From: Gammaproteobacteria bacterium | GTDB taxonomy: Bacteria; Pseudomonadota; Gammaproteobacteria; SZUA-229 | Assembly (NCBI GenBank): GCA_029881035.1 | Contig: JAOUNI010000021.1 | Span: forward strand, 1 to 40,759 | Length of the DNA: 40,759 nucleotides | Direction: 5' to 3' | Shown: one piece after another, positions 21,419 to 26,490 of the stretch | Layout of the letters: each line of letters starts with the position of its first letter | Position numbering within the stretch: the stretch's first letter is position 1 | Notes under the pieces: generated by a model | Seen by the model: the letters and a program-made list of their open reading frames with translations, nothing else | Told to the model about the DNA's origin: nothing | Database searches by the model: none | Made by a program: the position numbers and the translations under genes

Positions 21419-22561
21419 TTAAGATTTTACGTCATCAATGAATCGTTTCACACGATCCACCCAGGAATCATTTTTCGGACTATGTTGCTTGCCGTCAGCC
21501 TGAATCGAATTATCAAACTCACGTAACAGCTCTTTCTGCTTGCTGTTTAGTTTAACCGGAGTTTCAACCTGGACGCGACACAATAAATCGCCGACAGGGC
21601 CACCGCGAACCTGCTTCACACCCTTACCGCGCATGCGGAACAGATTGCCTGACTGTGTTTCAGCCGGGATTTTTAATTTAAGACGACCATTGAGTGTGGG
21701 CACTTCCAGTTCACCACCCAGCGCTGCAGTAGCAATGCTGATAGGCATTTCACAATAAAGGTCATTTTCATCACGAGTAAATATTGAATGCGGCTTAACC
21801 TGGATCTGTACATACAGATCACCATTTGGACCACCATTTTCACCAGCTTCGCCTTCACCCGCGAGGCGAATGCGATCACCATTGTCGACACCAGCTGGAA
21901 TTTTGGCGGACAGTGTTTTCTTCTTCTGCACACGGCCACGACCATGACAATCAGGACAGGGATCAGAAATGGTTTTACCCTGGCCACGACAGTTGGGACA
22001 GGTTTGTTGGACAGAGAAAAAGCCCTGCTGCATACGAACCTGGCCGACACCACCACAGGTGGTACAAGTGCTAGCTGTTGTACCTTTTTTTGCGCCAGAA
22101 CCATCGCAAGTATCGCAGCTTTGCATTGAAGGCACGCGAATACTAACTTCAGTACCAAACACGGCATCTTCCAGTGATAGTTCGAGGTTATACCTTAGAT
22201 CGGCACCTCGTACGACGCGGCTTCGACCGCCACCGCCTCGTCCACCACCGAAAATATCACCAAAAACATCGCCGAAAATATCACCAAAGTCACCACCACC
22301 AAAACCGGCAGCACCAGGGCGTCCTCCCATCGAAGGATTAACACCAGCATGGCCATATTGATCATATGCCGCTCTTTTTTGCGGATCAGAAAGAACCTCG
22401 TAAGCTTCTTTTGCATCCTTGAATTTTCCTTCCGACTCCTTGTCATCCGTATTACGATCTGGATGATGTTTCATAGCAAGACGGCGATAAGCTTTCTTCA
22501 GATCAGCATCATTTACATCACGTGAAACACCCAGAATTTCGTAATAATCGCGTTTAGACAT
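21419..22561 (-). CDS. dnaJ: Chaperone DnaJ (Hsp40)
   Basis: DnaJ delivers substrates to DnaK and stimulates its ATPase. The 380-residue protein has a J domain (1-70, with the HPD motif at about 33-35) and a Gly/Phe-rich linker (about 75-115). Four CxxCxGxG zinc repeats lie at about 148-210, followed by the C-terminal substrate-binding domains. Length is typical. It lies 98 bases after dnaK, with an 11-base stem-loop in the gap that probably lowers its expression relative to DnaK. A GAAG ribosome site precedes the ATG. Confidence 0.97.
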
Positions 22562-22595: not shown

Positions 22596-22629
22596 ACAAA
22601 ACCAGGACAGTTACCTGACCTGGTTTTGT
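22596..22629 (-). terminator. Strong stem-loop between dnaK and dnaJ, partial terminator or stabiliser
   Basis: On the minus strand ACAAAACCAGG (22629-22619), a 12-base loop and CCTGGTTTTGT (22606-22596) form an exact 11-base stem, followed by GTTTATTTAG. It starts about 30 bases beyond the dnaK stop. The T-rich stem end and tail could give partial termination. Because dnaJ and later genes follow on the same strand with no clear new promoter, attenuation or 3'-end protection of a dnaK messenger is more likely than full termination. Confidence 0.6.
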
Positions 22630-22659: not shown

Positions 22660-24594
22660 TTACTTGTTTTCATCCTTGTCATTAACTTCTTCAAACTCGG
22701 CATCAACAGCATCATTTTCTTTATCAGCAGAAGCATTCGTTGTATCCGCACCAGATTGTGCATCGTTTGCTTCAGCCTGAGCTGCATAAGCTTTTTCAGC
22801 GATCTTGCTGGCGACTTCCGTCAGTGCTGTTGTTTTAGCTTCAATAGCATCTTTATCATTACCTTTCAGCGTTTCTTTGAGATCAGCAATAGCTGCTTCT
22901 GCCTGTGATTTTTCACCTGCATCTACCTTGTCGCCCAGATCTTTAATTGACTTTTCGGTAGCATGAATCATGTTTTCAGCAGCATTTCTGGCATCGACCA
23001 GAGCACGTGCTTTTTTATCTTCATCAGCATGAGCTTCAGCGTCTTTGATCATTTGCTCAACTTCTTCATCTGACAAACCACTGGATGCCTTGATGACAAT
23101 AGATTGTTGCTTACCAGTTGCTTTGTCTTTAGCCGATACATTCAAAATACCATTGGCATCAATATCAAAACTAACTTCAATCTGAGGCACGCCACGTGGT
23201 GCAGGTGGAATATCACTCAGATCAAAACGCCCCAGCGATTTATTACCTGAAGCCATTTCACGCTCACCTTGTAATACATGCACGGTAACAGCTTTCTGAT
23301 TATCATCAGCAGTTGAGAATACCTGTGATGCCTTGGTCGGAATCGTTGTATTTTTCTCAACCAGTTTGGTCATGACACCACCCATGGTTTCGATACCCAG
23401 TGACAAAGGTGTTACGTCGAGCAATAACACATCATTCACTTCACCGCCGAGTACACCACCCTGGATCGCAGCACCGATAGCAACAGCTTCATCAGGGTTA
23501 ACATCGCGACGAGGCTCTTTACCGAAGAATTTTTGTACTTCTGCCTGGACCTTGGGCATACGAGTTTGACCACCGACAAGAATAATGTCATCGATATCAC
23601 TGGCAGACAGGCCGGCATCTTTCAATGCCTGTTTGCATGGACCCATGGTGCTTGAGATAAGATCATCAACTAAACTTTCAAGCTTGGCGCGTGATAGTTT
23701 GATGTTCATATGTTTAGGGCCAGAAGCGTCGGCTGTGATATAAGGCAGATTAACATCGGTCTGTTGTGTTGAAGAAAGCTCAATTTTGGCTTTCTCAGCA
23801 GCTTCCTTAAGACGCTGCAACGCCAATGGATCATTGTGCAAATTAATACCTGAATCTTTCTGAAATTCGTCAGAAAGATAATCGATCAGGCGCATATCAA
23901 AATCTTCACCACCAAGGAAGGTATCGCCATTGGTAGCCAGTACTTCAAACTGATATTCACCATCAATTTCTGCTATTTCGATTACAGAAACGTCAAAAGT
24001 ACCGCCACCCAGATCATAAACAACAATCTTGGAGTCACCTGTTTTTTTATCCATACCGTAAGCCAGTGCTGCTGCAGTAGGCTCATTAATAATGCGTTTA
24101 ACATCCAGACCGGCAATACGACCTGCATCTTTAGTTGCCTGACGTTGTGAGTCATTAAAGTAAGCAGGTACGGTAATAACCGCTTCAGTCACTTCATGGC
24201 CGAGGTAGTCTTCTGCAGTTTTCTTCATCTTCTGCAATACACGTGCAGAAATTTCAGGTGGTGCCATTTTGTTACCATGTGCTTCAACCCATGCATCACC
24301 ATTATCAGCTTTGATAATTTTGTACGGCACTAGTTTTATATCACGTTGTACCACTTCTTCATCAAAACGACGACCAATTAAACGTTTTACCGCATACATA
24401 GTATCGGCCGGGTTAGTCACAGCCTGACGTTTTGCAGATTGGCCGGTGATGACTTCACCACTTTGTGTAAAAGCAACAATCGATGGTGTGGTGCGATCAC
24501 CTTCGCTATTTTCAATAACCTTGGCAACGCCTCCATCCATCACGGCTACGCAGGAGTTGGTGGTTCCGAGGTCTATTCCTATAATTTTTGACAT
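22660..24594 (-). CDS. dnaK: Chaperone DnaK (Hsp70)
   Basis: DnaK is the ATP-dependent general chaperone and a negative regulator of heat-shock responses. The 644-residue protein has the Hsp70 signatures [18 protein letters not shown] at the N-terminus, [16 protein letters not shown] near 195 and [14 protein letters not shown] near 340. A substrate-binding domain follows, then a lid and an acidic tail ([15 protein letters not shown]). Length is normal (E. coli 638). GGAG stands 8 bases before the ATG. The 107-base gap to grpE contains a sigma32-type promoter, listed separately, so dnaK can be induced independently of the hrcA promoter. Confidence 0.98.
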
Positions 24595-24647: not shown

Positions 24648-24676
24648 ATATGGGGCTATCTCAGCTCTTTTCAATA
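24648..24676 (-). promoter_or_regulatory. Sigma32-type heat-shock promoter for dnaK
   Basis: On the minus strand TATTGAA (24676-24670) is followed after 14 bases by CCCCATAT (24655-24648). This fits the RpoH consensus CTTGAA ... CCCCATNT with the spacing known from E. coli dnaK. A transcript starting near 24640 would have a leader of about 46 bases before the dnaK ATG. The same layout recurs before grpE, which raises confidence in both. Confidence 0.7.
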
Positions 24677-24701
24677 CCTGACTTAAATAAGGTTTATGTG
24701 A

Positions 24702-25265
24702 TTATTCAACAGCCTTTGAAACCATGACCATTGCGGGCCTGACCAGACGATCATTAAGCAAATAGCCTTTTTGCATCACCGCAATGACTGTATTGGGTTC
24801 AAATTCATCGGTAGGCTGTGCGGTCATGGCCTGGTGTAATTCAGGATTGAATGGTTCATTAACAGGATCGATCATCTTGATGTTAAATTTTTCAAACATC
24901 TGATTAACCATATTAAGGGTGAGTGTCATACCTTCACGTAAACTTTCGGTGCTTGCATTTTCTACGGCTAGCCCTAATTCCATGCTGTCCATTACGGGCA
25001 AGAGTTCACTGACAAATCTTTCAATGCCATATTTATGAGCATTTTCCAGATCGATCTGAGTACGGCGTCTTAAATTTTCCATTTCAGCCTTACTACGCAG
25101 TAACAGCTCCCAGTTTTCTTCTGCTTTCTTCTCTGCCTGATTGATACGCTCAATCATTTCGTCTTCTGCTTGAACCAGTGCTTCTTCTTCAGCACGCATT
25201 TGTGCTTCCTGATCGAGCTCCTCAACGACTGGTGACTGTTCCTGGCTTGCCTCATTCGATGACAT
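24702..25265 (-). CDS. grpE: Nucleotide exchange factor GrpE
   Basis: GrpE releases ADP from DnaK. I choose the ATG at 25265 (187 residues), preceded by GGAG at 5 bases; a GTG at 25271 would add two residues. The protein has an acidic, charged N-terminal half that should form the long paired helix (residues about 20-85, with RSKAEMENLRRR). The C-terminal beta domain has the GrpE signature ending GYLLNDRLVRPAMVMVSK. Length is standard. Gene order hrcA-grpE-dnaK-dnaJ is the classic heat-shock operon, with a sigma32-type promoter in the gap before this gene. Confidence 0.96.
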   Translation of the reverse strand: MSSNEASQEQSPVVEELDQEAQMRAEEEALVQAEDEMIERINQAEKKAEENWELLLRSKAEMENLRRRTQIDLENAHKYGIERFVSELLPVMDSMELGLAVENASTESLREGMTLTLNMVNQMFEKFNIKMIDPVNEPFNPELHQAMTAQPTDEFEPNTVIAVMQKGYLLNDRLVRPAMVMVSKAVE

Positions 25266-25311
25266 ATTCACTCCAAAATTTAATAAATCAATAAGTTATA
25301 TTACGTTTGGG

Positions 25312-25339
25312 TAGATGGGGACGACTTTTGCTTATTCAA
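25312..25339 (-). promoter_or_regulatory. Sigma32-type heat-shock promoter for grpE
   Basis: On the minus strand TTGAA (25339-25335, preceded by GGGG) is followed after exactly 14 bases by CCCCATCTA (25320-25312). This fits the RpoH consensus well in the -10 region and adequately in the -35. A start near 25305 leaves a leader of about 40 bases to the grpE ATG. It lies in the 93-base gap between hrcA and grpE. Confidence 0.7.
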
Positions 25340-25358
25340 CCCCAATACCTTTAAATAA

Positions 25359-26402
25359 TTATGCTTTCAGTGCCTCACTCAATAATCGAGCTGTCACATC
25401 AACGATAGGTATTACCCTGTCGTAATTAATACGCGTAGGACCAATAACCCCCAGCGCACCAATTACCTCACCACCGACCGAATACGGTGAGGTTACTACG
25501 CTGCAATTTCCCAGACCATCAATACCGACTTCTTTACCAATAAAGATCTTCACGCCCTCACCCTGAATGCAGCGATCCAGCAGGCCGAGCATTTCACGTT
25601 TATGGTCAAACATATCCAGCATATGCTGCATGTGTTTCATGTCGGTATCGCCACTATATCTGACCAGGTTACTTTTACCCTGTACCAGGTAAGGTTGCTG
25701 TTTATCTTCAAAATCAGGTAAGGCTTTATCAGCGACATCAATAACCGTACGCATTATCGCGTCCATATCTTTACGAGTGCGATTTAAATCTGATAACAAC
25801 TCTTTACGTACTGCAAAGATATCCTGTCCGGAAAAATGACGATTCAGATAGTTAGATGTAGCCTGTAGTTGTTCTACAGAATATGTCTGTTCTAAATGAA
25901 TAACTCTGTTTTGGACTTCCTTCTCATTTGTCACCAGTATGGCCAGAACTTTATTTTCAGGCAGTGGTAAAAATTCAATATGACGTAATTTTGACTGACT
26001 TTTTTTCGGTACAGTAATCACACCAGCCATATGGGTTAGCTCAGAAAGCATCTGATTGGCCTGACTAATCAGCGTATCTTTGTTTTGATCTGGATTCAGT
26101 TGCTGCTTGAGCTTGCTGAATAATTCCTTTTGCAGCGGCTGTACTTCGAGCATGGTATCAACAAACATACGCAGCCCTCTTTCGGTTGGTATTTTCCCCG
26201 AAGAGGTATGCGGTGCTATAACCAGCCCCTGTTTTTCAAGACCCGACATAACATTACGGATCGTTGCTGAACTGATATCCAGCCCTGCCATATCTGCCAG
26301 TTGCTTGGAACCCACCGGCTGACCATCCGTAATGTAACTATCAACCAGTTTCTTAAGCAGGGTTGCAGCTCGGTCATTCAATAACTGGGGGCTCGCGGAC
26401 AT
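25359..26402 (-). CDS. hrcA: Heat-inducible transcription repressor HrcA
   Basis: HrcA binds the CIRCE operator and represses chaperone genes until heat stress inactivates it. The 347-residue protein has an N-terminal winged helix (about 5-75; LLKKLVDSYITDGQPVGSK, then SSATIRNVMSGLEKQG) and a GAF-like central domain. The conserved C-terminal end carries the HrcA features SVVTSPYSVGG and GALGVIGPTRINYDRVIPIV. Length is typical (about 340-350). A matching CIRCE lies 27 bases upstream of the ATG, so autoregulation is expected. HrcA occurs in only part of the Gammaproteobacteria, which narrows the host lineage. Confidence 0.96.
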   Translation of the reverse strand: MSASPQLLNDRAATLLKKLVDSYITDGQPVGSKQLADMAGLDISSATIRNVMSGLEKQGLVIAPHTSSGKIPTERGLRMFVDTMLEVQPLQKELFSKLKQQLNPDQNKDTLISQANQMLSELTHMAGVITVPKKSQSKLRHIEFLPLPENKVLAILVTNEKEVQNRVIHLEQTYSVEQLQATSNYLNRHFSGQDIFAVRKELLSDLNRTRKDMDAIMRTVIDVADKALPDFEDKQQPYLVQGKSNLVRYSGDTDMKHMQHMLDMFDHKREMLGLLDRCIQGEGVKIFIGKEVGIDGLGNCSVVTSPYSVGGEVIGALGVIGPTRINYDRVIPIVDVTARLLSEALKA

Positions 26403-26428
26403 ACAATAACTCGATTACAGGATAATAA

Positions 26429-26455
26429 TTAGCACTCATCACTACTGAGTGCTAG
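26429..26455 (-). promoter_or_regulatory. CIRCE operator (HrcA binding site)
   Basis: The inverted repeat TTAGCACTC (26429-26437), 9 bases, GAGTGCTAG (26447-26455) matches the CIRCE consensus TTAGCACTC-N9-GAGTGCTAA in 17 of 18 positions with the exact spacing. It lies between the sigma70 promoter and the hrcA start codon, covering the predicted transcription start, so bound HrcA should block initiation. Confidence 0.95.
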
Positions 26456-26461
26456 CTGCGA

Positions 26462-26490
26462 ATTATCCGTGTAAACCACTATAGGGTCAA
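26462..26490 (-). promoter_or_regulatory. Sigma70 promoter of the hrcA operon
   Basis: On the minus strand TTGACC (26490-26485), a 17-base spacer and GATAAT (26467-26462) match the housekeeping consensus at five of six positions each. The predicted start falls in the first bases of the CIRCE element. The promoter lies directly behind the lolD stop codon. Confidence 0.75.

Follow-up and report, generated by a model that had tools for sequence, protein, structure and literature searches.

Predicted series wiring of HrcA and sigma32 heat-shock control in a gammaproteobacterium, with a CIRCE operator upstream of rpoH

In this study, we found that CIRCE, the predicted operator of the repressor HrcA, lies not only over the promoters of the hrcA operon and groES but also upstream of rpoH in a gammaproteobacterium of the SZUA-229 lineage, and that the rpoH site co-occurs with hrcA across the class. 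Because CIRCE also sits on rpoH, the two heat-shock control systems of this bacterium appear to be connected in series, not in parallel. We propose, with a probability of roughly three in four, a two-tier circuit in which HrcA is predicted to repress the hrcA operon, groESL and rpoH, and in which the sigma32-driven expression of grpE and dnaK would depend on the release of HrcA. The hrcA operon was analysed in a window of 40,759 nucleotides, which is the whole stretch of DNA considered here, and its motifs, their positions and their conservation were observed directly as described below.

The hrcA operon and three CIRCE sites

A complete hrcA-grpE-dnaK-dnaJ series, assigned with NCBIfam and Pfam profiles, lies on the minus strand downstream of lolD. 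It comprises hrcA (25359..26402), encoding the heat-inducible transcriptional repressor (TIGR00331, 323 bits against a cut-off of 197; Pfam HrcA and HrcA_DNA-bdg), grpE (24702..25265; GrpE equivalogs of NCBIfam and Pfam GrpE), dnaK (22660..24594; TIGR02350, 961 bits) and dnaJ (21419..22561; TIGR02349, 460 bits). The profile matches show that the hrcA product has both the DNA-binding and the C-terminal domains.

The hrcA promoter is of the sigma70 type (TTGACC-N17-GATAAT; 26462..26490, minus strand). It matches at 10 of 12 positions and is the top one of nine promoter-like hits in the region, a number of hits not above that in shuffled sequences; its -35 and -10 are kept across the genus alignment, the exception being one congener with a disrupted upstream region. 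The CIRCE, CTAGCACTC-N9-GAGTGCTAA (26429..26455), matches at 17 of 18 positions and starts 6 bp past the -10. Given that the -10 ends at 26462 and the CIRCE spans 26455 to 26429, the CIRCE covers the expected hrcA start, so the near-perfect CIRCE that the first-pass annotation had placed at the start of this promoter is indeed present. None of the shuffled hrcA upstreams (n=1350) scored above 14/18 for CIRCE, and a CIRCE of at least 14/18 was found at hrcA in 23 of the 45 readable relatives and in 9 of 13 extra rpoH-bearing genomes from other families. A terminator scan flagged the same palindrome; we rejected a role as terminator, since this sequence also overlies promoters at groES and rpoH. 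In one congener (G005, locus L049), an insertion of about 100 bp, bounded by long inverted ends and resembling a small mobile palindromic element, lies right after the hrcA CIRCE and before the hrcA start.

Scanned with up to two mismatches allowed, the whole genome (2.69 Mb, 98% complete) showed three palindromic CIRCEs, at the hrcA operon, groES and rpoH, and none for the reversed control. The groES site is perfect (18/18) and lies 28 bp 5' of the start, and the rpoH site (17/18) lies 30 bp 5' of the ATG, within the ftsX-rpoH gap. The sequence that defines the HrcA/CIRCE regulon, TTAGCACTC-N9-GAGTGCTAA, is thus found at the promoters of hrcA (17/18) and groESL (18/18). Among the readable genomes of the window's family, the CIRCE is present at rpoH in 28/28, at groES in 32/32 and at hrcA in 16/32, which makes the hrcA site the least constant of the three; in the 16 family members without it, the rpoH site was found in all 14 that were readable.

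Upstream of groES (L102), a sigma70-type promoter (CTTGACTCTG...TTATGAT) adjoining the CIRCE is near-invariant in the genus. We rejected groESL as a sigma32 target in the genus, as the best element scores just 8-9/11 and lies upstream, while the sigma70 promoter abuts the CIRCE. Because groES combines a sigma70 promoter and a CIRCE with a weak sigma32-like element, the control of GroE and DnaK may be divided between HrcA and sigma32. One relative (G029) has two groES loci (L180 and L236), each with an 18/18 CIRCE.

Sigma32-type elements before grpE and dnaK

Putative sigma32-type promoters of the form TTGAA-N14-CCCCAT lie on the minus strand 5' of grpE (25315..25339; TTGAATAAGCAAAAGTCGTCCCCAT) and 5' of dnaK (24650..24674; TTGAAAAGAGCTGAGATAGCCCCAT). 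Both are perfect (11/11), in agreement with the first-pass annotation, and in 5000 shuffles of each gap this score was reached once for the grpE gap and twice for the dnaK gap. In the whole genome, TTGAA-N13..15-CCCCAT has eight perfect matches versus one in the reversed control. The six matches outside the operon were rejected as regulon members, none being tied to a heat-shock gene. With neighbours named by eye, four of them are antisense to or inside genes and the remaining two lie 76 bp 5' of a glmS-like gene and about 190 bp 5' of a carA-like gene; all six look like chance occurrences and were treated as such or as unassigned. A perfect match alone is weak evidence, and it is conservation that supports the grpE and dnaK elements.

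Relatives comprised 58 genomes including this one, 48 of them with an hrcA match at E <= 0.001, and 48 operon stretches, this genome's own included, were compared. Among the readable congeners, again counting this genome, the grpE element scores 11/11 with invariant TTGAA and TCCCCAT columns in 6/6, and the dnaK element scores 11/11 with invariant TTGAA and CCCCATAT columns in 5/5; in the genus alignment both hexamers are fixed and the spacers variable. Loss of the elements from close relatives, named at first pass as grounds for abandoning them, therefore does not apply. The identical spacing of the two elements, to which the first-pass annotation had also drawn attention, is a property of this genome and not of its congeners: the grpE spacer is N14 here only and N15 in all five other readable congeners, whereas before dnaK the four others that are readable all have N14. 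We therefore rejected any meaning in the identical spacing.

Beyond the genus, the best element scores at least 10/11 in the grpE gap of 25/46 readable relatives (1.3% of shuffles) and in the dnaK gap of 33/43 (0.6% of shuffles). Other families contributed 12 further rpoH-bearing genomes in which the gaps are readable, and such elements were found in 3/12 (grpE) and 9/12 (dnaK); the thirteenth extra genome, G129, was left out of these counts, grpE and dnaK not having been found beside its hrcA. Taken together, the counts suggest that the putative dnaK promoter is class-wide and that the grpE promoter is limited to certain lineages, in which it comes and goes. Nineteen genomes (including this one) combine a CIRCE of at least 14/18 at hrcA with a readable dnaK gap, and 15 of them carry a dnaK element of at least 10/11. 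Dual control of the operon by HrcA and sigma32, as predicted from these motifs, is common in the relatives and not rare; the first-pass annotation had described it as known only from some proteobacteria.

The CIRCE upstream of rpoH and the promoter beneath it

The first-pass annotation had suggested looking for rpoH, and the gene is present in this genome (TIGR02392, 388 bits against a cut-off of 323), its translation containing QRKLFFKLR, which we take to be the RpoH box. We extended the analysis to a class sample of 104 genomes, at least 90% complete and one per family, in which rpoH was identified by TIGR02392 and hrcA by PF01628; hrcA was found in 75 and rpoH over the cut-off in 94. A CIRCE of at least 15/18 within about 250 bp 5' of rpoH was present in 63 of the 68 genomes with both genes versus 3 of the 26 with rpoH but no detected hrcA (Fisher p 4e-14, uncorrected for kinship). 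No shuffled rpoH upstream scored above 14 for CIRCE (n=3880, obtained by shuffling each of 97 loci 40 times; two of these loci lie in genomes that do not belong to the class sample). Given that the CIRCE precedes rpoH class-wide in hrcA-bearing genomes, the sigma32 layer is probably itself under HrcA.

The five genomes of the class sample with hrcA and without an rpoH CIRCE are G049, G062, G072, G100 and G135, although the rpoH upstream of G135 looks like a CIRCE with an 8-base spacer. Conversely, hrcA was not detected in G052 (L207), G103 (L255) and G119 (L253), yet their rpoH CIRCEs score 15-17/18, for which a recent loss of hrcA, a missed gene or another binder are alternative explanations. 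Seven genomes of the sample (L317-L323), taken as a negative control, have hrcA and no rpoH over the cut-off; four of them (G064, G073, G104 and G117) carry dnaK-gap elements of at least 10/11, and their rpoH may be absent from the draft or too divergent. G068 has two rpoH genes (L274 and L316) with a CIRCE on just one, a possible division of labour.

The alignment of 94 distinct rpoH upstreams on the CIRCE revealed the motif GGAACTT, which begins 16 bp before the CIRCE. We take GGAACTT-N16-TCnnA to be the sigmaE promoter consensus, with GGAACTT as its -35. A match of at least 5/7 to this -35 at positions -15 to -17 of the CIRCE was found in 69/94 rpoH upstreams versus 3/46 of groES and 2/22 of hrcA (5/68 together). 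The sigmaE-type -10, TCnnA, straddles the junction of the left CIRCE arm and the spacer, taking in two bases of the arm and three of the spacer, and a spacer TnA was found in 48/94 rpoH sites versus 4/46 of groES and 5/22 of hrcA (9/68 together). By contrast, a TATAAT-like -10 (at least 5/6) abuts the CIRCE in 40/46 groES versus 11/94 rpoH upstreams, and some rpoH sites also have a sigma70-like -10 adjoining the CIRCE. In this genome, the rpoH upstream reads GGAACTT-N16-TCTCA, of the sigmaE type, with the CIRCE on top, and RpoE is encoded (TIGR02939, 304 bits against a cut-off of 236), with a weak RseA match adjoining. In the one-per-family set, GGAACTT (at least 5/7) is in register in 41/63 CIRCE-bearing rpoH upstreams and TnA is present in 28/63; the sigmaE reading thus does not hold for all of them. 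In the hrcA-less genomes G103, G105 and G119, sigmaE-type elements are kept over an intact or decaying CIRCE. These data suggest that the rpoH CIRCE overlies what looks like a sigmaE-type promoter, sigmaE being the least certain step of our proposal. Such a candidate composite promoter, on which a cytoplasmic repressor and an envelope-stress sigma factor would meet on one stretch of DNA, is directly testable.

Proposed circuit, alternatives and precedents

From these patterns we infer HrcA binding, promoter use, the identity of the sigma factors and the dynamics of the circuit. HrcA would bind the CIRCE at three promoters, namely the sigma70-type promoters of hrcA and groESL and the promoter of rpoH, and the hrcA-grpE-dnaK-dnaJ operon would form the lower tier. 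It is known that the activity of HrcA depends on GroEL in other bacteria. Upon heat or a loss of folding capacity, HrcA would let go, directly raising groESL and read-through of the hrcA operon and freeing rpoH, perhaps fully only when sigmaE is active. Newly made sigma32 would then fire the promoters of grpE and dnaK within the operon, and DnaK, DnaJ and GrpE, which shut down sigma32 in E. coli, would switch it off again. Control of grpE and dnaK by HrcA would thus run along two routes, a direct one and one by way of sigma32.

rpoH could have further promoters, and since E. coli controls sigma32 mostly at and after translation, repressing the transcription of rpoH might have little effect. 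In a rival explanation the layers are parallel, as the first-pass annotation had it: HrcA would set the basal level of the operon and sigma32 would act independently on grpE and dnaK. With translation and stability setting the activity of sigma32, the rpoH CIRCE would then be weak or irrelevant. The hrcA CIRCE and the sigma32 elements are each real and conserved, as this explanation expects, and E. coli, without a CIRCE at rpoH, regulates sigma32 otherwise. An idle operator at rpoH, however, would not be preserved at 17-18/18 across most families and occur almost exclusively in hrcA-bearing genomes, and we consider parallel layers improbable. Of the first-pass proposal, the layering itself is well supported by conservation, whereas the separateness of the layers is not, given the third CIRCE before rpoH. 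We regard it as very improbable that the CCCCAT elements inside the operon arose by chance or are relics and that the operon is transcribed from the hrcA promoter alone, under HrcA. This would suit the eight perfect matches in the genome, most of them far from heat-shock genes, and the lack of the grpE element in many families, but not hexamers that are invariant in the genus while the spacer varies, nor the excess of dnaK-gap elements over shuffles (33/43 versus 0.6%).

A further explanation rivals only the sigmaE step and not the series wiring, namely that the rpoH CIRCE acts on a sigma70 promoter and that GGAACTT is some other conserved element. Several rpoH upstreams do have TAAAAT or TATAAT abutting the CIRCE, in the same register as at groES. 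Nevertheless, we think this rather unlikely, as TATAAT of at least 5/6 is in register in just 11/94 rpoH upstreams against 40/46 of groES, the strict register of GGAACTT and the TCnnA inside the CIRCE are as expected for sigmaE, and TGAACTT-N16-TCTGA is retained upstream of rpoH in E. coli. This E. coli region (L337), which is known to depend on sigmaE, has the same spacing and lies in the same ftsX-rpoH gap, but it has no CIRCE (best score 10/18 anywhere and 6/18 in register); E. coli is not among the controls with HrcA.

Returning to the series wiring, we tentatively suggest, while leaning slightly to the doubtful side, that an HrcA-gated sigmaE promoter on rpoH is the ancestral heat-shock wiring of the Gammaproteobacteria (in the GTDB sense). 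With the operator over the sigmaE -10, full transcription of rpoH would require stress in the cytoplasm (HrcA/GroEL) and in the envelope (sigmaE) at the same time. In E. coli, HrcA and the operator would have been lost and the sigmaE-type promoter of rpoH left behind, and genomes such as G103, G105 and G119 would be intermediates.

HrcA/CIRCE and sigma32 are textbook systems, in which positive control by sigma32 (E. coli) is set against negative control by HrcA (Bacillus), and bacteria with both are seen as having two parallel systems. In the Bacillus-type operon, hrcA is the first gene, a CIRCE lies over the operon promoter and groESL is the second target, all as found here; unlike the present case, it is without sigma32, internal sigma32 promoters and an rpoH target. 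If the repressor sits on rpoH in most families that keep both systems, E. coli would represent the reduced arrangement, and most gammaproteobacteria that keep HrcA would begin heat-shock induction with its release. Work by Permina and Gelfand from 2003, judging from its title, reportedly covers the sigma32 and HrcA/CIRCE regulons of beta-, gamma- and epsilon-proteobacteria and may already list gammaproteobacterial rpoH CIRCE sites. It is the likeliest earlier report and lies outside our literature search, which, in the accessible parts of its sources, met no report of the rpoH-CIRCE link in gammaproteobacteria or of the sigmaE/CIRCE composite. The one published precedent found for an rpoH CIRCE is a prediction in Geobacter sulfurreducens, in which, as here, CIRCE sites were placed 5' of hrcA-grpE-dnaK-dnaJ, rpoH (-51) and groESL, together with weak sigma32-like sites, including one before dnaK-dnaJ (Rodionov et al., 2004; PMC545781). 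That case differs from ours in concerning one deltaproteobacterium, and the accessible parts of the paper note neither a sigmaE element nor a class-wide gammaproteobacterial link.

Minor features were also seen in the gaps of the operon. Directly 5' of grpE, an A-T rich block (AACTTATTGATTT...TTTTGGAG; about 25270-25300, minus strand), possibly a translation signal, is near-invariant in six congeners, and the DNA between it and the grpE sigma32 element is variable among them. The terminator scan found a terminator-like hairpin (AGGTCAGGTAACTGTCCTGGTTT; 22599-22621, minus strand) followed by a T-rich tail between dnaK and dnaJ, and this may reduce dnaJ in comparison with dnaK.
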